From Pseudomonas laurentiana (GTDB lineage: Bacteria; Pseudomonadota; Gammaproteobacteria; Pseudomonadales; Pseudomonadaceae): a stretch of 64,000 nt of DNA. Position numbers and translations under genes: made by a program. Under the pieces are notes generated by a model. That model saw only the letters and a program-made list of their open reading frames with translations, did no database searches and was not told where the DNA came from. Below are positions 11,931-37,768 of the stretch, in pieces (within the stretch, counting starts at the first letter, position 1; each line of letters begins with the position of its first letter). The stretch is taken from positions 361,954-425,953 of the forward strand of contig NZ_BMQU01000001.1 of NCBI RefSeq assembly GCF_014648275.1, read 5' to 3'.

Positions 11931-12060
11931 GGGGCGCCGCGGCTCAATACCCATGGCGTACTCTCGACTTTGCTGCTATCAAGACACCAGCGTGCACGCT
12001 AACTAAACTTCCCTGAGCCGTTAACCGCGGAATTGCAGGTCTTTAGCTGCTGGGGTCTTA

Positions 12061-13839
<1,779 letters not shown>

Positions 13840-13911
13840 GTCTTGCCCACAAAATGAAACAGCTCGGCGCTACTGAAGGCGGGTGGTTTTGCGCGAGTAT
13901 TGCGGGGCTAT

Positions 13912-13986
13912 GGCCGCTGTGCGCATGAGGGCGGTGGCCCTGCCGGGCGCCTACTGTCCCGGTCGACCAACCTGCGCACGGCGGCC
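13912..13986 (+). ncRNA. Structured RNA-like element, copy 1
   Basis: The 75-base segment can fold as a three-way junction. The closing stem pairs 13912-13924 with 13974-13986 (12 of 13 Watson-Crick, one wobble). One internal hairpin is AGGGC/GCCCT (13928-13932 with 13937-13941) and another is CCGGG/CCCGG (13943-13947 with 13958-13962). A second copy lies 228 bases downstream with compensatory differences. No ORF follows this copy directly. Whether it acts as RNA (leader, riboswitch-like, sRNA) is inference. Confidence 0.45.
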
Positions 13987-14139
13987 ACCCTTCGATCTTC
14001 GCCTTGCCTCATTGCACCTTGGGCGTTAGGCTTCTTACTCGCTGAAAATCAGCGAACGGGCTTGGTCGCCCGTGCCAACGAAAGTTACAGCTCCTTGTCT
14101 TCGAATGCAGACGTCTCGGCGTCCGTATCGTTGTGCTAT

Positions 14140-14814: not shown

Positions 14815-14866
14815 AGAAACAAAGAAGGTCCACTTTTAGGTGAAATTTCTTTGGTAGTGCGTATGG
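14815..14866. repeat. Left copy of 52-bp direct repeat flanking the island
   Basis: This segment matches 18443-18494, the terminator region just 3' of tRNA-Thr up to its CCA end, at 44 of 52 positions without gaps. The last 22 bases (TTTCTTTGGTA.TGCGTATGG) match best. It marks the left edge of the AT-rich accessory segment and looks like an old duplication of the tRNA-Thr 3' flank, as expected for an att-type junction. Confidence 0.6.
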
Positions 14867-15138
14867 GGCTGCGCCAGACGTACGGTTTTTAGGTGTTGAA
14901 TCCCTGTTTTCGTGGAGCTGGAATTTAGTGGATTTTTGGACGTGCCTCATACTGTGACTATAAATAAATCAGCTAATTATGGCTTTTGGTGGAATCGAAC
15001 CCAGATCTTCCATAGGATCCAGCGAAGAAATTTCCGAGGTGGAATCGCAGAGGAGTGCAATTTGCGCTGGCGGCAATATTCTTGATGATGGCAATATGGG
15101 TATCAATGTCAGTAAATGAGATGGAGCTTTGGTCTTAA
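14867..15138. other. AT-rich intergenic segment with tRNA 3'-end-like fragment
   Basis: No gene is supported. At 14978-15002 the segment shows TATGG followed by TTTTGG and GGAATCGAACCC, the reverse complement of a tRNA T-loop and CCA end. Twelve bases are identical to the corresponding part of tRNA-Thr at 18492-18567. The stem pairing is broken, so it is a fragment at most, possibly an older att remnant. Confidence 0.4.
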
Positions 15139-16026
15139 ATGATTGGTGATAAACTTCAGATCGCGTTTCGAAAAAATTCGAAAGGCGCACGCGGGGAGAT
15201 TTCGCTATTCCGCGCCTTCATAAAATCGTTTAATGCGCTTGGCAGTGAAGCACTTGCTAAAGAATATCATGGGAACCGCTACCAGGTAACCTTCGATGAA
15301 GGTCGAGGTGCTGGCCGTCCAATGCCTCGATGTGAACTGTGCGACGTTATGATCGTAAGTTATCCAAAGGGAAAGCCTTGGGACGCACGAGTTACGTTCA
15401 ATCAAGTAAAAGTATCTGGCTCTGCATTTGGTTGTGGTTGGTCGCCTACCTTACATCGCTCATATCGTTTTCGTGCAAATCTTGAACAATGGGATTTACT
15501 ATCAAACAGGCCATCCATTAATCCGGCGACAACTATATTCACCCCGCCAGCAGGGCTTTTGAGAGATGCTTTGCTGCCATCAGTTGGGTCATTTGGGGTG
15601 TTCTATCCGTCGACTGTGGGGTTTGAGTTCGCCTACTTCGTTGCTAATGGCTTGAATCCACTGAACAACAGCCCAGGCCGTTCAGGGACACTTGAGTGGA
15701 ACTCACCGATGCGTAAGGTCCGGACGATAGGCGGGTATGATGAAGTATTAGGAACATGCTGCCTAAAATATTTTGGAGCAGGGATTGAGAGCGGATATGT
15801 TGGGACGCCATTAGCACAATTATTTAATGGCACGCCAGGGGGGCAACAGAGTCGAGCTTGGATCAGGAAAATTCTGGTATCCCTTCAAAGTGAGAATCCG
15901 GAATCAATGCTTCCAAGGGAGTTGTTACAGGGATTAGAGCTTCAATTCGAGCTGGGTGATGAAAATCGAAATATGGCCGGAGCCGGATACTCAGTTCCTC
16001 GCGCCGTTCTACTAATTAGGACGTAA
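15139..16026 (+). CDS. Hypothetical island protein with PD-(D/E)XK-like pattern
   Basis: I do not recognise a named family for this 295-residue protein. Residues 18-91 resemble a PD-(D/E)XK nuclease core: a helix with Glu20 (GARGEISLFRAFIK), a strand ending in Asp69 (CELCDVMIV) and a second strand with Gln89-x-Lys91 (ARVTFNQVK). Such cores occur in restriction and defence nucleases. The C-terminal ~200 residues show no motif I can name. No signal peptide or membrane helix is seen. Codon use is AT-rich, unlike the chromosome around it. The ribosome-binding site is weak (GGAG about 13 bases before the ATG). It converges on the caspase-like gene with a 107-base gap and may be part of the same cargo module. 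Confidence 0.6.
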   Translation: MIGDKLQIAFRKNSKGARGEISLFRAFIKSFNALGSEALAKEYHGNRYQVTFDEGRGAGRPMPRCELCDVMIVSYPKGKPWDARVTFNQVKVSGSAFGCGWSPTLHRSYRFRANLEQWDLLSNRPSINPATTIFTPPAGLLRDALLPSVGSFGVFYPSTVGFEFAYFVANGLNPLNNSPGRSGTLEWNSPMRKVRTIGGYDEVLGTCCLKYFGAGIESGYVGTPLAQLFNGTPGGQQSRAWIRKILVSLQSENPESMLPRELLQGLELQFELGDENRNMAGAGYSVPRAVLLIRT

Positions 16027-16133
16027 GTTTCCGGTAGTGGCTATATTGGGAATGAGAGCGGCTATCTTACCATTCTCGCGATGCTCCAACTTTCAGTTCT
16101 AGGCGCCCCATGCTGCTAAATAATATGGGCGGA

Positions 16134-17027
16134 CTATATGGCCTCTATTCTCTGTGAGGGGATGGCATTCAAAATCCAGCATTCTTGATGGACGTACAGC
16201 AACGAAGCACTCATTGAGTAATTTTTGTGCGCCGCCTGGAGCGCTAAATCAGTCGAAGGGTTCTGATTTGCATCGAAAGCTTGCTTGGCGGCAACAAATT
16301 TTGCTTGAAGATCTGATGAGCCAATCAATGCGTTTGTTTTCATGTTTTTGTTGGCGCCGTTAGAGCAGACTCCGGCAAATTTGTACGAGTCCATAATGGT
16401 GAATTTCCCATCCCCGTCTATATCTACAGGTGACGACAACCATTTGAATGAGAAAAGTAAAAATATATTGGCATGCCAAGATACGGGGCCGGATAAAAAA
16501 GCCTCTGTTGTATGAAGACTAAGGCTTTCATGAAGGTTTGTGGCGCCGATAAATATAATTTCAGGATCTGCCTCGCCGTCATCTTTTTTCTTACTGCCAG
16601 CGCCGATATAATTGAATACGCCAGCGTAGCATTGTCCGAGGTATACCACGGCATGCTTCAAGTTAGGTGAAGACTTTAGGCAGTTCAGAAGGGCGTGAGG
16701 GGTTACCGGTGGAGCAGCGTCTATACCAAGTGGGCCGCCATGTCCAGTTACAAACATCACGATATTTTCATGCTTATTAACTGTTTGATCTGCGAAGAAA
16801 TCTTTAGATTCTTTAAGGTTTAACTGAGATGCAGTTCCGCTTTTAAGGAAATTTTCGATTGAGGCGCGGTCTGAGCCATCAACATAGATTTCGATGTCGG
16901 AGATACTAACGCCAGCCTTTTCTAAGCAAAGAATACCAAAAGCAAGATCTGTAATGTGGCGGGTTTCTGGCTCATTTGCTGCGGATAAAAACAAGACCCA
17001 TTTGGTGTTGCCGCCTATCAAACTCAT
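16134..17027 (-). CDS. Caspase/legumain-like (clan CD) cysteine protease
   Basis: This 297-residue protein has the clan CD catalytic dyad: His96 in MFVTGHGGPLG and Cys133 in VVYLGQCYAGVF, each at the end of a hydrophobic strand and 37 residues apart, as in peptidase families C13/C14. A DxDxDG loop (DIDGDGKFTIMDSY, residues 202-215) may bind calcium or be the conserved post-catalytic loop seen in bacterial C13-like proteins. There is no signal peptide, so it should act in the cytoplasm. Bacterial caspase-like proteases often serve as suicide effectors in anti-phage systems; that role here is inference. AAGGA lies about ten bases before the ATG. It is 31 bases downstream of a 93-residue gene in the same orientation. 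AT-rich codon use indicates acquisition by transfer. Confidence 0.75.
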   Translation of the reverse strand: MSLIGGNTKWVLFLSAANEPETRHITDLAFGILCLEKAGVSISDIEIYVDGSDRASIENFLKSGTASQLNLKESKDFFADQTVNKHENIVMFVTGHGGPLGIDAAPPVTPHALLNCLKSSPNLKHAVVYLGQCYAGVFNYIGAGSKKKDDGEADPEIIFIGATNLHESLSLHTTEAFLSGPVSWHANIFLLFSFKWLSSPVDIDGDGKFTIMDSYKFAGVCSNGANKNMKTNALIGSSDLQAKFVAAKQAFDANQNPSTDLALQAAHKNYSMSASLLYVHQECWILNAIPSQRIEAI

Positions 17028-17058
17028 TAATTAAAAATCCTTGTTTATCATCCGATGA

Positions 17059-17340
17059 TTAGAATAGGCGGGTGTTGCTAAGTGAAATAGGTCTATGGAT
17101 ATCGGAAAAATAAAAAATCTCATCTATCTCGATTTTTTCAGACGATGGTTCTACTTGGTATAGTAATTTGCCTCTGTCGTCCAGTTTGTATATCTTTGAG
17201 TCGGTTTTGAGATAAAAAGATGCTGTACTAGAGGTTGAATCTTCTGACTTGAATAGCAGCCACTCTCCCATGTTGACACACTCTTTGACAGAGTCGTCAA
17301 TGTCTGGGAGCCTGCTAGACAATATATCATGAAGTTTCAT
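17059..17340 (-). CDS. Small hypothetical protein, partner of the caspase-like gene
   Basis: I do not recognise this 93-residue acidic protein (MKLHDILSSRLPDIDDSV, then predicted beta-rich SFYLKTDSKIYKLDDRGK and IEIDEIFYFSDIHRPI). It is the first gene of a two-gene unit: GAGGG precedes its ATG, and the protease gene starts 31 bases after its stop. It has no signal peptide or membrane segment. Position and size fit a regulator, inhibitor, adaptor or substrate of the protease; none of these can be chosen from sequence alone. Confidence 0.65.
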   Translation of the reverse strand: MKLHDILSSRLPDIDDSVKECVNMGEWLLFKSEDSTSSTASFYLKTDSKIYKLDDRGKLLYQVEPSSEKIEIDEIFYFSDIHRPISLSNTRLF

Positions 17341-17877
17341 TTCAACCCTCGCCTGATTCTATAGAAGCATTCCGCAAAAATGCTTATGTAATGTCGCCGT
17401 ATGCTAGTACAGGCATGCTTTTTTTGCACCCGGCTGAAACAATTTTTCATCCTGCTAGCCCTGAATCTTTTTCGGCCAACACACCTCCTCCATCCGTAGG
17501 AGCCCCACGTTCGAGGCTCCGCAGCCCTCCACGATCTCAGAGGTCGAGCTGCATCGGTTTACTAGACCGTCAGTAAGCTACGGTCGCAGCATTACAGCCC
17601 ATGCGATGAATGGCAGTCTAGAGGGGGAGAGCTCACACCCCATGACCCTTATCTCCCCACGTCATCCCGCCAAGAATGCTGAGTGTTATCAGGGATCAAG
17701 GCCCCTGCGACCTGTGGGGAATGTCCACTACGCGGGACTGGCGGCTCCTTACGACCGGGAGCAAGGGCCTCTCATGATCTGGCCTCCTGAGCACCGTTGT
17801 CGGTTGGCGGGTGGAGGCTGCACTGGCTGACGAGACCAGCGCCGCGAGATCCTGAGCCGGGTGGAGGCAGTGATGCG

Positions 17878-18018
17878 ATGACCGGGGCATGCCTGACTGT
17901 CAGTCAGGTGCAGGCCATTCTTTGGGCTGCGGCACCATCATCTGCATCGCTGTTGCTGGTGGCTTTGGTGTTTGTCACGCCGGTTGTCACGAGGGGAGTT
18001 GCCGTACCGTTCATATAA
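17878..18018 (+). CDS. Possible small membrane protein (46 aa)
   Basis: GGAGG lies ten bases before the ATG at 17878. The predicted product (MTGACLTVSQVQAILWAAAP, then a run of hydrophobic residues LLLVALVFVTPVV) has one membrane segment. It faintly resembles small membrane proteins of filamentous phages, which would fit an integrated element at a tRNA, but I cannot establish homology. Very short length keeps confidence low. Confidence 0.3.
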   Translation: MTGACLTVSQVQAILWAAAPSSASLLLVALVFVTPVVTRGVAVPFI

Positions 18019-18442: not shown

Positions 18443-18491
18443 AGAAACAAAAAAGGCCCACCTTTCGGTGAGCCTTCTTTGGTACTGCGTA

Positions 18492-18494
<3 letters not shown>
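18443..18494. repeat. Right copy of 52-bp direct repeat (tRNA-Thr 3' flank)
   Basis: This copy covers the tRNA-Thr terminator and the three bases encoding the tRNA CCA end. It matches 14815-14866 at 44 of 52 positions. It is the intact side, since both tRNA and terminator are functional-looking here. Confidence 0.6.
18449..18480 (-). terminator. Terminator of tRNA-Thr
   Basis: On the minus strand, GGCTCACC and GGTGGGCC pair around a short loop and are followed by TTTTTTGTTT, 12 bases beyond the tRNA 3' end. Confidence 0.8.
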
Positions 18495-18567
<73 letters not shown>

Positions 18568-18917: not shown

Positions 18918-20183
18918 TCACTGGGCTGGGGTGCGTTCGGCCAGTAGCATCAGGTTGCGTGGGGTGAGGGTGTAGTCGCAGAACTGCCCGAGCTGTACCC
19001 GGTAGCCTTGGGCTTGCAGGTAGAGGGCGCGGTCGAGCACCAGCCACAGTTCCAGCGGGCGGCGGAACAGGTTGCGCAGCAGTTCCAGGTTGCGCACTTC
19101 GGCCAGCCTCGTTTGGCCTGCAGCTTCCAGGGTATCCCAGTCGGGGTTGCCGTGCAGGGGCAGGCCTTTGAGGGCGGCGAGGTCGCGGCAGTAGTCGGCG
19201 AAGGGTTTGTCTAGCCAGCTGCTGGGCAGTGACGGGGTGGGCAGGTAGGCGTCGATACCGCGTTGTTGGCGTTGCAGCAAGTCGAAGCCGAGGCGGCGGG
19301 CCATGGACAGGTCGCGTTGGCGGCGTACCCGGGCGCCAGCGGTGACGGTTTCGCTCAGTGGCAGGCCCAGGTCGTCGAGGCTCAGTTGCAGCGCCGAGGC
19401 CTGGGCTGCGTTCGACAGCGGTTGGTAGACCGGGCCTTGGGTGCGGTTGTAGCAGCACGGGGCGATGGCCAGTTGGTTGCAACCACGGGCGCTGGCCAGT
19501 TGCATCAAGCGCACGTGCAGGTCGCCGCAGGCGTGCAGGGCCACGGGGGTGTGCTGTGGGCTGAGTTGCTGGTCGGTGTTGTCGGCCAGCACATCCTGCA
19601 GGCGGTGTTCGGCGTTCAGGCTGTGGTGTTGGCTAAGTGCTTGGCCGGCCTGCACCAGGGCTGGGTCGTATTCCAGGCAGGTCAGGTGCTGGTCGTTGTG
19701 CAGCAGGCGGCGGCCCAGGTGGCCTTTGCCTGCGCACCAGTCGAGCCAGTGGTGCGGGGTGTGGGTGAAGCCCAGGTGGCTGGCGAAGGCTTCGATCTGT
19801 TGCCATTTGCGCCCCGGTACGTCGACGTTCAGCCGCGACGGGGCCGGGGCGATGGCGATGGCGGGCAGTTCGCCGACCGCCGCCAGTTGTGCGGCCTGTG
19901 CCGCCAGCTGTGGATAAGGCGCTGGTGCGTCGAGTGTTTCCGGGTGGTTGTGGGCGGCTTCGGCGTCGCTCAGTGTGCGTTGGCGCAGCCACTGGGCCAG
20001 GGCAGGGTGCTCGGTTTCCCACGGCAGTTGGCGTTCGGTGAACGGGCGCGGGCGCCAGAGTGCCTGGTGTTGCCGCAGGAAGTGGTCGAGGGCCTGGAAG
20101 CGGCTGAGCAGGTCCGCGTCAGCCAGGGCAGCAGCGGGGCCGGAGGCGGCCCCGCTTGCCGGTTTAGCGGCCTTGGCAGGCAT
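18918..20183 (-). CDS. Class I SAM-dependent methyltransferase
   Basis: The 421-residue protein has a central Rossmann-type methyltransferase domain. Motif I is WLDWCAGKGHLGRRLL (about residue 165), followed by LTCLEYDPALVQAG with the acidic ribose-binding residue, and later VALHACGDLHVRLMQLA and NQLAIAPCCYN. This pattern fits the Methyltransf_32-type family of unknown substrate. The gene overlaps the upstream permease gene by 20 bases, so it is the last cistron of the ABC-transporter operon. Its N-terminus (MPAKAAKPASGAASG) is low-complexity and the exact start is less sure. No transport role is apparent. Confidence 0.85.
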   Translation of the reverse strand: MPAKAAKPASGAASGPAAALADADLLSRFQALDHFLRQHQALWRPRPFTERQLPWETEHPALAQWLRQRTLSDAEAAHNHPETLDAPAPYPQLAAQAAQLAAVGELPAIAIAPAPSRLNVDVPGRKWQQIEAFASHLGFTHTPHHWLDWCAGKGHLGRRLLHNDQHLTCLEYDPALVQAGQALSQHHSLNAEHRLQDVLADNTDQQLSPQHTPVALHACGDLHVRLMQLASARGCNQLAIAPCCYNRTQGPVYQPLSNAAQASALQLSLDDLGLPLSETVTAGARVRRQRDLSMARRLGFDLLQRQQRGIDAYLPTPSLPSSWLDKPFADYCRDLAALKGLPLHGNPDWDTLEAAGQTRLAEVRNLELLRNLFRRPLELWLVLDRALYLQAQGYRVQLGQFCDYTLTPRNLMLLAERTPAQ

Positions 20184-20853
20184 CGACTCGCAGCCAGCGT
20201 TCGAGCAGCTTGAAGCCGTTTACCAGCAGGAAGGAGATCAGCAGGTAGAACAGCCCGGCAGCGAAGAAGATCTCTACCGGCAGGTAGGTGCGGGCGATGA
20301 TGGTACGCGCCATGCCGGTCAGTTCCAGCAGGGTGACGGTACTGGCCAGGGCACTGGCCTTGAGCATCAGGATCACTTCGTTGCTGTAGGCCGGCAGGCC
20401 GATCCGTGCGGCACGCGGCAGCATGATGTAGAACAGCGCCTTGGCCTTGGACATGCCTAGCGCCCGGGCGGCTTCGATCTCGCCTCGAGGGATGGCCTGC
20501 AGCGCACCGCGCAGGATCTCGGCGATGTAGGCGGCGGTGTGCAGGGTCATGGTCAGCACCGTACACCAGAACGGGTCACGCAGGTATGGCCACAGGGCGC
20601 TGCTGCGCACGGCGTCGAACTGGGCCAGGCCGTAGTAGACCAGGAACAGTTGCACCAGCAGCGGGGTGCCACGGAAGAAGAAGATGTAGCTGAAGGGCAC
20701 GGCACGGACATACCAGTGCCGCGACGAGCGGGCGATGCCCAGCGGGATGGCCAGGATCAGCCCGGCGATCACCGCGATGGCGACCAGTTCCAGGGTGAGT
20801 GTGGCGCCTTGGGCCAGGCGTGGCAGCCACTTGATGATGACTTCCCAGTTCAT
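20164..20853 (-). CDS. Basic amino-acid ABC transporter permease (HisM-like)
   Basis: Start set at 20853 (MNWEVIIKWLPRLAQGATLT); longer in-frame readings run through the preceding gene. The 229-residue protein has the polar amino-acid permease fold with about five membrane helices. The EAA loop GAL-x-AIPRGEIEAARALGMSKA, which contacts the ATPase, lies near residues 120-145. Its ATG overlaps the stop of the preceding permease gene by four bases (ATGA), so the two are translationally coupled. It should pair with the other permease as a heterodimer. Confidence 0.92.
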   Translation of the reverse strand: MNWEVIIKWLPRLAQGATLTLELVAIAVIAGLILAIPLGIARSSRHWYVRAVPFSYIFFFRGTPLLVQLFLVYYGLAQFDAVRSSALWPYLRDPFWCTVLTMTLHTAAYIAEILRGALQAIPRGEIEAARALGMSKAKALFYIMLPRAARIGLPAYSNEVILMLKASALASTVTLLELTGMARTIIARTYLPVEIFFAAGLFYLLISFLLVNGFKLLERWLRVDACQGR

Positions 20854-21545
20854 TGGTTGGCCCTCGCGAAGCCGCGTGCGGCGCGTTTTTCCATGAAGTG
20901 CATGCCGGTCATGGCGATGATGGTCAGGCCCAGGTAGATGAAGGCGGCAACCATATAGAAGGTGAACGGCTGTTTGCTGACCGTCACGGCGATCTGCGAG
21001 TGACGCATGATTTCTTCCAGGCCGATCACCGAGACCAGCGCGGTGTCTTTCATCAGGATCATGAACAGGTTGCCCAGGCCGGGCAGGGCGATGCGCCACA
21101 TTTGCGGCAGGATCAGCTTGGAGAAGATCCGGCCTTTGGACAGGCCCAGGGCCAGGCCCGCTTCACGGTGGCCCTTGGGAATGGCCAGGATCGCACCACG
21201 GAAGACTTCCGTGGCATAGGCGCCGAAGCACAGGCCGAGGGCGATGACGCCCGCGGCGAAGGCGTTGAGCTCCAGGCCAGGCATGTTCAGGGCTTCGCCC
21301 AGCCGGTTCATCAGGCTGACGGTGCCGAAGTAGATCAACAGTACCCACAGCAGTTCAGGTACGCCACGTACCAGGGTGGAGTAGAAACCACCGAGCCATT
21401 GCAGGGGTTTGTATGGCGAGGTTTTGGCCAGGGCGCCGAGCAGGCCCAGGACCAGCCCCAGTGCCAGGGCACACAACGCCAGTTTGACGGTCATCAAGGT
21501 ACCGGCAGCAAGTGCCGGGCCGAATCCGTAGAGGTCGATATTCAT
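20850..21545 (-). CDS. Basic amino-acid ABC transporter permease (HisQ-like)
   Basis: The 231-residue protein begins MNIDLYGFGPALAAGTLMTV and has the HisM/HisQ-family helices and the EAA loop (AILAIPKGHREAGLALGLSK, then GRIFSKLILPQ). It is the first of two permease genes and follows the binding-protein gene by 56 bases. Together with its partner, ATPase and binding protein it forms an importer of the lysine/arginine/ornithine/histidine class; exact specificity cannot be read from sequence. Confidence 0.92.
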   Translation of the reverse strand: MNIDLYGFGPALAAGTLMTVKLALCALALGLVLGLLGALAKTSPYKPLQWLGGFYSTLVRGVPELLWVLLIYFGTVSLMNRLGEALNMPGLELNAFAAGVIALGLCFGAYATEVFRGAILAIPKGHREAGLALGLSKGRIFSKLILPQMWRIALPGLGNLFMILMKDTALVSVIGLEEIMRHSQIAVTVSKQPFTFYMVAAFIYLGLTIIAMTGMHFMEKRAARGFARANQ

Positions 21546-22367: not shown

Positions 22368-23141
22368 TTAGCGGTTGCTGGACATGAATTGTTTGCAGCG
22401 CGCCGAGTTCGGGTTTTCAAAAACCTGCTGCGGCGATCCTTGCTCTTCGATCAGGCCTTGGTGCAGGAAGATCACTTCGCTGGACACCTGGCGGGCAAAG
22501 CCCATTTCGTGGGTAACCAGTAGCATGGTTCGACCTTCTTCGGCCAGCGCACGGATCACGTTGAGCACTTCCTGGACCATTTCCGGGTCCAGTGCCGAGG
22601 TGGGCTCGTCAAACAGGATGACCTTGGGTTGCATGGCCAGGGTCCGGGCGATGGCGGCCCGCTGTTGTTGCCCGCCAGACAGTTCGGCAGGGTAGGCGTG
22701 GCGCTTGTGGTGAATGCCGACCTTGTCCAGCAGCGCTTCGGCGGCTTCGGTGGCTTCGGCCTTGCTCTGGCCCAGGACGCGACGAGGTGCCTCGATGATG
22801 TTGTCGAGGATGGTCATGTGCGGCCAGAGGTTGAAGTTCTGGAAGACGAAGCCGATCTCGCTGCGCATGCGATTGATCTGCTTGTTGTCAGCGGCGACCA
22901 GCTCGCCGTTTTTTGCCGCCTTCAGGCGCAGCTCTTCACCGGCGACAAGGATTTGGCCTTGGTGCGGGTTTTCCAGCAGGTTGATGCAGCGCAGCAGGGT
23001 GGACTTGCCTGAACCCGAAGACCCCAGAATCGAGATCACGTCGCCGTCGCGTGCGGTCAGCGAAATACCCTTGAGTATCTCCACGCTACCGTAGCGTTTG
23101 TGCAGGTTGCGGATTTCAAGCGCGGGCGTGGCCTGGGCCAT
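22368..23141 (-). CDS. Amino-acid ABC transporter ATPase (HisP-like)
   Basis: The 257-residue ATP-binding subunit has Walker [10 protein letters not shown] (residues 40-48), the Q-loop ([14 protein letters not shown]), the signature [15 protein letters not shown], Walker [13 protein letters not shown] and the H-loop VTHEMGFAR. It is the first gene of the operon ATPase-binding protein-permease-permease-methyltransferase, reading left. It should energise uptake of basic amino acids. Confidence 0.95.
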
Positions 23142-27336: not shown

Positions 27337-27609
27337 TTATTCGGCAGGTGGAACGTAGCCTTCGGCCTTGGCGTAATCCTCGCCGGAGAAGAACTTGTCC
27401 ATCTCGCCCTGCAGGTATTTGCGGTCTTCGGCGTTCATCATGTTCAGGCGCTTCTCGTTGATCAGCATGGTCTGGTGTTTCTGCCAGTCGGCCCAGGCTT
27501 TCTGCGAGATGTGGTTGAAGATGTCTTCACCTTTGGCGCCCGGGTAAGGTTGGCGCTCCAGGCCTGGCAGTTCTTCTTTGTACTTGCGGCACATTACGGT
27601 ACGGGTCAT
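27337..27609 (-). CDS. yggX: Fe(II)-trafficking/oxidative damage protection protein YggX
   Basis: The 90-residue protein shows the YggX pattern throughout: [20 protein letters not shown], the [20 protein letters not shown] block and [19 protein letters not shown]. The single cysteine near the start (CRKYKEEL) is the conserved residue implicated in iron handling. YggX protects Fe-S proteins from oxidation, which suits its position directly after mutY, an Fe-S enzyme for oxidative DNA damage. Its start overlaps the mutY stop by four bases, so the two are coupled. Confidence 0.96.
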
Positions 27610-28673
27610 GACGACTCTCCTGAATTCAAGGCATCGGCTGCGCGTTTGAGCAGCTTTTTCACCGGGGCGGCAAGGCCCAGGCGCGGCGGGGTGGCGAGGT
27701 TATACCAGAGCCAGTCGGCCTCGGCCACGTGCTCGCCCTGATGGCCGACGTGTACCAGCCAGGGTTCGATGGCCAACTGGAAATGGCTGAAGGTGTGGGT
27801 CAGGCCGCTCAGTGCCTGACGGCGCTCCAGGGTCAACTGATGCTGTTCGGCGAGGTCTTCAAGGTCGGCCAGGGTATCGAGCTCCGGCAGGCTCCAGAGC
27901 CCGCCCCAGAGGCCGCTGGACGGTCGGCGATAAAGCAGGATCGCGCCTTCACGGTTGGCCAGCAGGGGCATCAGCGTACTGCGTTGTGGCAGGGTTTTAC
28001 GCGGCTTGGGCAGCGGGTAGCGGGTTTCCTGGCCGAGCAGGTGTGCTTCGCAGCCGCGTTTGAGCGGGCAGAGCAGGCAACTGGGCTTGCTGCGGGTACA
28101 CAGGGTGGCGCCCAGGTCCATCATGGCCTGGGTGTAGTGGTTCACCCGGTTGTGCGGGGTAAAACGCTCGGCGGTGGCCCACAGTGCCTTGGCCACCTTT
28201 GGCTCGCCGGGGTAACCCTCCTGGGCACTGTAGCGGGCCAGTACCCGTTTCACGTTGCCGTCGAGGATCGGTGCGCGCAGGCCCATGCTGATGCTGGCAA
28301 TGGCACCGGCAGTGGACAGACCGATACCCGGCAGGTCGGTGAGCTTCTCCACGTCGCGGGGGAACTCGCCGGCGTACTGCTCGACAACGATCTTCGCGGT
28401 CTTCTGCAGGTTGCGGGCGCGGGTGTAATAGCCCAGGCCCGTCCACAGGTGCAGCACTTCGTCTTCCTCTGCTGCGGCCAGCGCCTCAACGGTCGGCAGG
28501 GCTTCCATGAAGCGCCCGAAGTAGTTGAGCACGGTGCTCACCTGGGTCTGCTGCAGCATGATTTCCGACACCCACACCCGATACGGGGTGATGCCCTGTT
28601 GCCAGGGCAGGTCGTGGCGGCCGTGTTGGTCATACCACTCCAGTACGGCACTGGAGAACTGCTCGGGACTCAT
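27606..28673 (-). CDS. mutY: Adenine DNA glycosylase MutY
   Basis: The 355-residue protein removes adenine mispaired with 8-oxoguanine. Visible are [14 protein letters not shown] with the catalytic Glu, the helix-hairpin-helix [17 protein letters not shown] followed by [11 protein letters not shown] with the catalytic Asp, and the 4Fe-4S ligand pattern C-x6-C-x2-C-x5-C ([17 protein letters not shown]). A C-terminal NUDIX-like 8-oxoG recognition domain begins near residue 230 ([19 protein letters not shown]). It is the middle gene of asmA-mutY-yggX, overlapping both neighbours by four bases, a widespread pseudomonad arrangement. Confidence 0.97.
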
Positions 28674-36589: not shown

Positions 36590-37768
36590 TTACCCCAGGG
36601 TTTTGCCCAGCAGGGCGTGATACAGCTCGCTGTCGCCCAGGATACCCACCACGCGGTTGCCTTCCTGCAGGACCAGTTTGTTGCCGGTCTGGTAACGAAT
36701 CTGCAGCGCTTCGCGCATGCCGATGCCAGCACTGACCAGGGTCGGCCGGCGACCCAAACCTTCCACCGCCTGACCTGGCATCCAGTTTTGCAAGTCCAGC
36801 CCGTTCACGCCCTGGCGCGCGCCTTTGATGGTGTTGCCTTCGGCCAGGTCCAGCCACGAGTCGACACTTGGGTCTATGCAGACCGAGCCGTTGATCCGCT
36901 TGCACTTGTCCAGGGTACGCATCAGGCTGCGGCCGCAGAGGACGTTGAGCGGGTTGGTGTGGGCGACGAAGGTGCGCACGTAGTCGTCCGCCGGGTTGAG
37001 GACGATCTCCTCGGGCTTGCTGTACTGAATGATCCGGCCGTCTTTCATGATGGCGATGCGGCTGCCCAGTTTCAGGGCTTCATCCAGGTCGTGGCTGACG
37101 AACACGATGGTCTTGCTCAGCTTGCGTTGCAGTTCCAGCAATTCGTCCTGCAGGCCTTGGCGGATCAGTGGGTCGAGGGCCGAGAAGGGTTCATCCATCA
37201 GCAGGATGTCGGCGTCCATGGCCAGCGCGCGGGCCAGGCCTACACGCTGCTGCATGCCACCGGAGAGCTCGTCGGGCTTCTTGTTGCGCCACTGGGTCAG
37301 GCCGACCAGCTCCAGTTTTTCGTCCACCAGCCGACGTCGTTCATCGGCAGGGCGGCCCTGCATTTCCAGGCCGAAGCTGATGTTTTCGCGCACGGTCAGC
37401 CAAGGCATCAGGGCGAACTTCTGGAACACCATGGCGATGCGCTTGGTGCGCATCATCTTCAGTTCAGCCGGGGTGCAGGAGGCGATGTTGATCTGCGAGC
37501 CTTCGTGTTCGACGAACAGCTTGCCACGGCTGACCGTGTTCAGGCCGTTGATGCAGCGCAGCAAGCTCGACTTGCCTGAGCCGGACAGGCCCATCAGCAC
37601 GCAGATCTCGCCTTTGTTGATCTCCAGGCTGGCTTTTTCCACACCGACCACCAGGCCGGTCTTCTTCAGGATCTGTTCGCGCGTGAAGCCTTGGTCCAGC
37701 AGGCTCAGGGCCTCACGCGGTGATTTGGAGAAGATAACGTCTACCTCGTCGAAGCGAATGATACTCAT
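36590..37768 (-). CDS. cbcV: Choline ABC transporter ATPase CbcV
   Basis: The 392-residue ATPase belongs to the ProV/OpuAA group. Walker A is GLSGSGKSS (residues 60-68), the signature is LSGGMQQRVGLARAL, Walker B ADILLMDEPFSALD and the H-loop FVSHDLDEALKL. The ~110-residue C-terminal part is a CBS-like regulatory region, as in betaine and carnitine transporters. It follows cbcW with a four-base overlap. With CbcW and CbcX it forms an importer used in Pseudomonas for choline, and with alternative binding proteins for betaine and carnitine. Confidence 0.93.
   Translation of the reverse strand: MSIIRFDEVDVIFSKSPREALSLLDQGFTREQILKKTGLVVGVEKASLEINKGEICVLMGLSGSGKSSLLRCINGLNTVSRGKLFVEHEGSQINIASCTPAELKMMRTKRIAMVFQKFALMPWLTVRENISFGLEMQGRPADERRRLVDEKLELVGLTQWRNKKPDELSGGMQQRVGLARALAMDADILLMDEPFSALDPLIRQGLQDELLELQRKLSKTIVFVSHDLDEALKLGSRIAIMKDGRIIQYSKPEEIVLNPADDYVRTFVAHTNPLNVLCGRSLMRTLDKCKRINGSVCIDPSVDSWLDLAEGNTIKGARQGVNGLDLQNWMPGQAVEGLGRRPTLVSAGIGMREALQIRYQTGNKLVLQEGNRVVGILGDSELYHALLGKTLG

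Follow-up and report, generated by a model that had tools for sequence, protein, structure and literature searches.

What a protease gene and the very small gene next to it might do together, in an AT-rich stretch of a Pseudomonas laurentiana contig, is the question raised by this locus. The original prediction, made from the 64,000-nucleotide stretch of DNA analysed here (the window), described them as a two-gene unit of a caspase/legumain-like protease and a 93-residue partner, and suggested that the unit had been acquired and could act against phages. Both open reading frames are present on the minus strand, with the partner gene upstream of the protease gene across a gap of 31 nt, and the pair occupies 1.2 kb in total (Table 1). 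The evidence presented below leads us to propose that this two-gene unit is a probable, hitherto undescribed module against phages, which travels as cargo in prophages, in elements resembling phage satellites and in defence-rich spots of bacterial genomes.

The GC fraction falls to 0.41-0.49 in the stretch that holds the pair (15001-17500), compared with 0.63-0.68 at 12001-14000 and 19001-21000, and takes values of 0.51-0.61 in between. Since 55-nt repeats bracket the AT-rich stretch, and the right copy enters the 3' end of a tRNA-Thr gene, the region has the appearance of an att-like island of ∼3.6 kb; the same tRNA-Thr was found in two of the three relatives whose right-flank region was taken. 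The sole further sizeable gene picked within the island encodes a 295-aa protein that gave no Pfam, PADLOC or NCBIfam match. Relatives of this protein were found in 2 IMG/VR contigs (L053, L054) and, counting the source genome of the window, in 2 of 199 genomes of the genus; no credible match to it was detected at the six genome loci L002-L007 described below. By eye, it contains a Cys-Glu-Leu-Cys-Asp ... Gln-Val-Lys pattern, and it could be a PD-(D/E)xK nuclease. Immediately left of the island lie two tandem C4 antisense RNAs (RF01695; 13906-13992 and 14134-14222, plus strand), an RNA type known from phages P1 and P4. Within the island, a 350-bp segment (17654-18004) shares 89% identity with another genus genome (L057, 6910-7264), where the counterpart lies 4.4 kb away from the same tRNA-Thr.

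Table 1. Positions in the window of the gene pair, its putative functional sites and the surrounding island features.
Feature	Position	Strand	Basis or remark
Left copy of 55-nt att-like direct repeat	14815..14869		84% identity to 18443-18497
Convergent island gene, 295 aa, no family	15139..16026	+	ORF; cargo neighbour, not a conserved component of the pair
Legumain-like (clan CD) cysteine protease, 297 aa	16134..17027	-	ORF, fold and PDB matches, 19-row alignment, dN/dS
EF-hand-type loop, protease residues 202-213 (D1, D3, D5, G6, D12)	16389..16424	-	invariant residues
Putative catalytic Cys133 codon	16629..16631	-	invariant 19/19; right after fourth model strand (125-130)
Putative catalytic His96 codon	16740..16742	-	invariant 19/19; right after third model strand (88-94)
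Arg23-His24, aligned with legumain helix 1 Arg-His pair	16956..16961	-	invariant; HMM alignment to plant legumains
Partner protein, 93 aa, phrog_30138 family, first gene of pair	17059..17340	-	ORF, PHROG match, model
Putative protease-recognition peptide, D-x-x-(K/R)-P-x-S-(L/F)-S-N, partner residues 80-89	17074..17103	-	alignment and model
Right copy of 55-nt att-like direct repeat	18443..18497		ends in 3' end of tRNA-Thr
tRNA-Thr	18492..18567	-	overlapped at 3' end by right repeat copy

Structure prediction for the protease returned a caspase-haemoglobinase fold (pLDDT 86, pTM 0.82), and legumains head both the Foldseek and the VIA match lists for this model. On the strength of the model, the protein is assigned to clan CD with a legumain-type fold, and its nearest solved relatives appear to be legumains and not caspases, so that of the caspase/legumain-like label initially given, the legumain half is retained. 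Its nearest kin are legumain (asparaginyl endopeptidase) and GPI transamidase, of peptidase family C13. The Pfam model Peptidase_C13 is matched by 7 of 19 family members (best E 4e-6), the window protein giving no match at E 10. Compared with legumain, the window protease is bacterial, apparently cytosolic (judged by eye), 297 aa long and without a C-terminal prodomain, and it has an EF-hand-type loop and a separately encoded partner. The His96/Cys133 dyad recognised at the outset is borne out by its invariance and its placement in the model, and the DxDxDG loop is indeed there as part of the EF-hand-type loop, in which D202, D204, G205, D206, G207 and D213 are invariant in the 19-row protease alignment. 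Conservation is also high at residues 281-292 (16152-16187, minus strand), which read Q-E-C-W-I-L-N-(A/S)-x-P-(A/S)-Q in nearly all members; this further segment sits at the low-confidence C-terminus of the model and might serve in autoprocessing or autoinhibition.

The Arg23-His24 pair of the protease is presumably the same as Arg44/His45 of human legumain. In the human enzyme these two residues help to line and shape the S1 pocket, and asparagine is preferred at P1, according to the available part of the legumain report (PMC4357240). Among the legumain S1 residues Arg44, His45, Ser216 and Asp231, the Arg-His pair could be aligned, and Ser216 and Asp231 could not, and since two of the four residues were alignable, we infer rather than assert a specificity for asparagine.

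To find relatives, a pattern scan of 84,980 species genomes (genome_contigs) was performed, and yielded six loci. The partner gene lies directly upstream of the protease gene in four of them (L002-L005), although at L005 it leaves frame before the tail of the protein, next to an intact protease ORF. At L006, the protease lacks its N-terminus and there is no partner, and at L007 (30% identity), an 85-aa ORF of doubtful kinship occupies the partner position. Of the 18 IMG/VR contigs found to encode the protease, 17 have the partner upstream, and in the 18th (L015) the contig end truncates the locus. Searching IMG/VR with the partner also gave 18 contigs, all of them with the protease; 17 are common to both searches, and the extra contig (L041) has the protease directly downstream. 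Matches were present in 22 of 5,426 complete E. coli genomes; in 13 the match extended over 80% or more of the pair, and in 9 it covered a short protease stretch. When seven of the former and three of the latter were inspected, partner and protease genes, annotated as hypothetical proteins, were adjacent at all 10 loci, and the protease gene was broken at four. The small gene comes first, on the same strand, in 19 of 19 pairs, with an inter-gene distance of 7-47 nt, and the partner and protease distance matrices of these 19 pairs co-vary (Mantel r 0.931, p 0.0001). Protease dN/dS was 0.034-0.133 (11 of 27 comparisons with finite dS), and partner dN/dS was 0.032-0.284 in 16 of 17 finite-dS comparisons (of 34), with 0.68 at a dS of 0.033 in the remaining one; these ratios derive from relatives, as every comparison involving the window's own genes was saturated. 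Both genes thus appear, from codon comparisons, to be under purifying selection. The 93-aa gene is therefore found at homologous loci, the pairing is strict in the IMG/VR and E. coli loci, and protease and partner are one unit. The original prediction has thus withstood both of the outcomes that it named as refuting it, a protease model lacking the caspase-haemoglobinase fold and absence of the small gene from every homologous locus.

The arrangement of the pair recalls that of type II toxin-antitoxin genes, in which a small gene leads and a second gene follows at such a short distance, and this raises the possibility of an addiction module, with the protease as toxin, the upstream small protein as antitoxin or inhibitor whose loss is lethal, and no dedicated sensing of phage. 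Broken proteases beside intact partners were observed at L026, L029, L064, L065 and L024, the damage being a frameshift, an IS1 insertion or a shortened ORF, and they are suggestive of a cost of the protease. In the seven inspected E. coli prophage copies, the partner ORF is intact in all and the protease is broken in four, which favours this reading, and L024 adds one more such case. However, the protease gene is three times longer than the partner gene, and because of this difference in target size, the 4:0 bias in breakage is not significant. Moreover, the damage at L005 is reversed, and the Asn-ending tail of the partner and the adjoining defence genes, both described below, would be left unexplained by pure addiction. 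We therefore regard this explanation as unlikely.

The partner had been described as unassignable, which holds in that no fold match was obtained in structure searches, and no match in Pfam or PADLOC, but it does belong to a family extending beyond this locus and travelling with the protease, since it matches PHROG phrog_30138 (function not annotated; E 7.4e-25). Its model is small and beta-rich (pLDDT 79). Residues D80, P84, S86, S88 and N89, close to the C-terminus, are identical in 19 of 19 partners, a count from which L005 was excluded because its ORF loses frame ahead of the tail. Mean conservation is 0.82 at residues 80-89 compared with 0.63 at residues 1-79, where two internal segments, 32-40 and 61-71, have values of 0.37 and 0.39, and past N89 it falls to 0.28 (90-93). 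The tail is not the sole conserved stretch, as a mean of ∼0.86 is reached at residues 17-31, within the folded part; its unusual trait is strong conservation where no structure is predicted, the model confidence being down at 55 over residues 81-90 and at 43 over 91-93. A segment that is conserved, probably disordered, ends in Asn, and belongs to a protein constantly paired with a legumain-type protease resembles a cleavage or pseudosubstrate site, and this lends support to the earlier suggestion that the partner is an inhibitor or a cleaved target. Since Asp80 is equally invariant, the P1 residue could be Asp80 rather than Asn89, or neither of the two.

The same tail could also be read as the processing site of an effector, with the partner as a pro-protein activated by clipping after Asn89, in the manner of protease-activated nuclease or gasdermin systems. 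A conserved tail ending in Asn and followed by a variable stretch would suit such a role, and proteolytic activation of a partner is used in a published three-gene caspase-nuclease system, according to the available part of its description (PMC12799240). But the clip would take off just the 3-10 residues, variable in length and sequence, that lie beyond N89, and the 93-aa partner contains no effector fold, Pfam or PADLOC match that we could recognise. The fold matches listed for its model, which would not suffice to reject a gasdermin, included none. We consider an effector role of the partner rather improbable.

The genomic surroundings of the pair were used to ask where it resides. Copies in E. 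coli lambdoid prophages occupy the early right region, where hokD is the next gene downstream and the late genes follow further on, and they are oriented like the lytic genes. At the one pair-free site inspected, in a related prophage (L066), the small gene on the upstream side is followed by hokD with no gene in between. In three other E. coli loci (L060, L061 and L063), two ClpP/capsid-fusion genes flank the pair, which has the opposite orientation, in an element that also has DUF1441, RepA helicase and Icd-like genes; an integrase and an HTH regulator are present in the fetched stretch of L060, and an integrase in L061. From this gene content, we infer a capsid-encoding satellite. One of the ClpP/capsid-fusion genes of this element is incomplete, and an adjoining HEPN-domain gene may be a second cargo. 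Among the other copies, head-maturation-protease genes flank the pair on either side in L010, an integrase adjoins it in L008 and L015, similar 225-aa genes (phrog_791 in L013) precede it in L013 and L014, a major tail protein gene adjoins it in L014, and a repressor-type gene is nearby in L016. Because the pair is scattered over such varied mobile-element sites, a role as accessory cargo fits.

The early right position, co-directional with the lytic genes, would also suit a role in the lytic cycle or in counter-defence, in which an early protease would benefit the phage by disabling a host or defence protein. However, other copies are situated by an integrase, near a repressor-type gene, antisense among head genes, within satellite-like elements or at genome loci whose scanned neighbours included no recognisable phage gene, and lytic timing would not suit all of these. 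In addition, a tblastn search of 50,697 phage records with two family members gave no match. We consider a phage-benefit role decidedly improbable.

The protease family was detected only in the window's own genome when samples from the genus (1 of 399), phylum (1 of 398) and class (1 of 369) were searched, these samples overlapping in part, and the partner was likewise found in that genome alone in the class sample (1 of 369). The pair is rare and mobile, and together with the AT-rich stretch and the att-like repeats ending at tRNA-Thr, this agrees with the acquisition originally proposed. Bacterial C13-like peptidases of varied roles exist, but strict pairing, co-divergence, rarity and mobility make it very hard to believe that the protease is a common intracellular peptidase whose neighbour is there by accident.

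Defence genes identified with PADLOC adjoin four of the six genome loci. The neighbour at L002 is Drt8 (E 4.5e-129), and at L005 a TOTE/PrimPol protein; L006, with its broken protease and missing partner, has PDC-S40 and McrBC-type genes, and L007 has a type I methyltransferase, PDC-S21 and a type I restriction gene. No PADLOC defence neighbour was found at L003 or L004. When immediate neighbours were counted, skipping ORFs of less than 150 aa, 5 of 12 at the six genome loci matched at E <= 1e-50 (Drt8, TOTE/PrimPol, PDC-S40, type I methyltransferase and PDC-S21), compared with 0 of 14 control genes in the window, a cut set after the hits were known; at 1e-10, the counts were 5 of 12 and 3 of 14, the control matches arising through generic domains. 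Housekeeping-looking window genes at 22368-23141, 27606-28673 and 36590-37768 match PADLOC models at E 1e-28 to 1e-36, probably via generic domains, and for this reason the lax cut is to be distrusted. Prophage copies have a typical address for such a function, since 12 of 21 new defence systems recovered by functional selection in E. coli were in intact prophages, according to the available part of that study (PMC9519451). The context of prophages, phage-satellite-like elements and defence-gene neighbours thus strengthens a putative role in anti-phage defence.

Taken at a probability of about one half, our main reading is that the pair is mobile cargo of temperate phages and satellites that guards the lysogen against other phages by a probably abortive or growth-arresting response, with the cytosolic legumain-type protease as effector and the small protein as its dedicated control subunit. 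This reading is built on the predicted fold and the dyad, on the pairing and the purifying selection, on the tail motif, and on the mobility and genomic context of the pair, and the remaining mechanism would be as follows. Protease and partner would be made together and form a complex, as strict pairing and co-divergence suggest. The partner tail, (K/R)PxS(L/F)SN89, probably disordered when alone, would then occupy the substrate cleft with Asn89 at P1, either braking the enzyme as a pseudosubstrate or waiting there as a substrate ready to be cut. An infection signal, possibly with Ca2+ acting via the EF-hand loop, would lift the brake or permit the cut after Asn89; this is the weakest step of the mechanism. 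Finally, the freed protease or the clipped partner would halt growth of the host or the phage. More tentatively, a cytosolic bacterial legumain may work as a phage-defence effector gated by a separate small protein with an Asn-P1 peptide; the protease would sense infection when its own tethered substrate is cleaved or displaced, and Ca2+ could be a co-signal.

Defence by a clan CD protease has precedent in Canu (CanABC), in which such a protease is co-encoded with a partner in a mobile, defence-island context, CanB forms a complex with CanA, and protease and partner can act in phage defence with a required nuclease; CanA, however, resembles MALT1 with an Ig-like domain, whereas the window protease is legumain-like and has no extra domain (PMC12799240, available part). 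A Canu-type MBL-fold nuclease gene was not found next to the pair, the window's island neighbour having no Pfam match, nor among 10 scanned neighbour genes of L002-L007, and the E. coli annotation, in which many genes carry the label 'hypothetical', lists none by name. Type IV Thoeris is similar in having a caspase-like effector in bacterial immunity; there, TIR signalling reportedly activates the protease, and no TIR gene was recognised beside our pair. The Lit protease is of a type unrelated to the window protease, and we know of no Lit partner gene like the 93-aa one. Lit, from the e14 prophage, is similar as a prophage-borne protease serving as exclusion effector, but is triggered by a phage peptide and cleaves EF-Tu, as stated in the available part of the source (PMC6379469). 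In the openly licensed PMC literature, no paper was found that names the accessions, the PHROG, or legumain together with prophage, and no legumain-type prophage defence was among the matches listed.

Bacterial immunity is known to use caspase-like proteases as effectors, and a legumain-type one was not among the matches listed in that literature. The proposal made here would place the module with the protease-effector cargo of prophages and satellites, and it predicts sharply that a single invariant Asn in the 93-aa partner is the site of cleavage or of occupancy. With a compact module, intact copies in E. coli and this single-residue prediction, substrate, trigger and defence should be directly testable in a laboratory strain. 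If the more tentative reading is true, the pair would represent a class of defence with a legumain-type effector, operating without a nucleotide, TPR, CRISPR or NTPase sensor.
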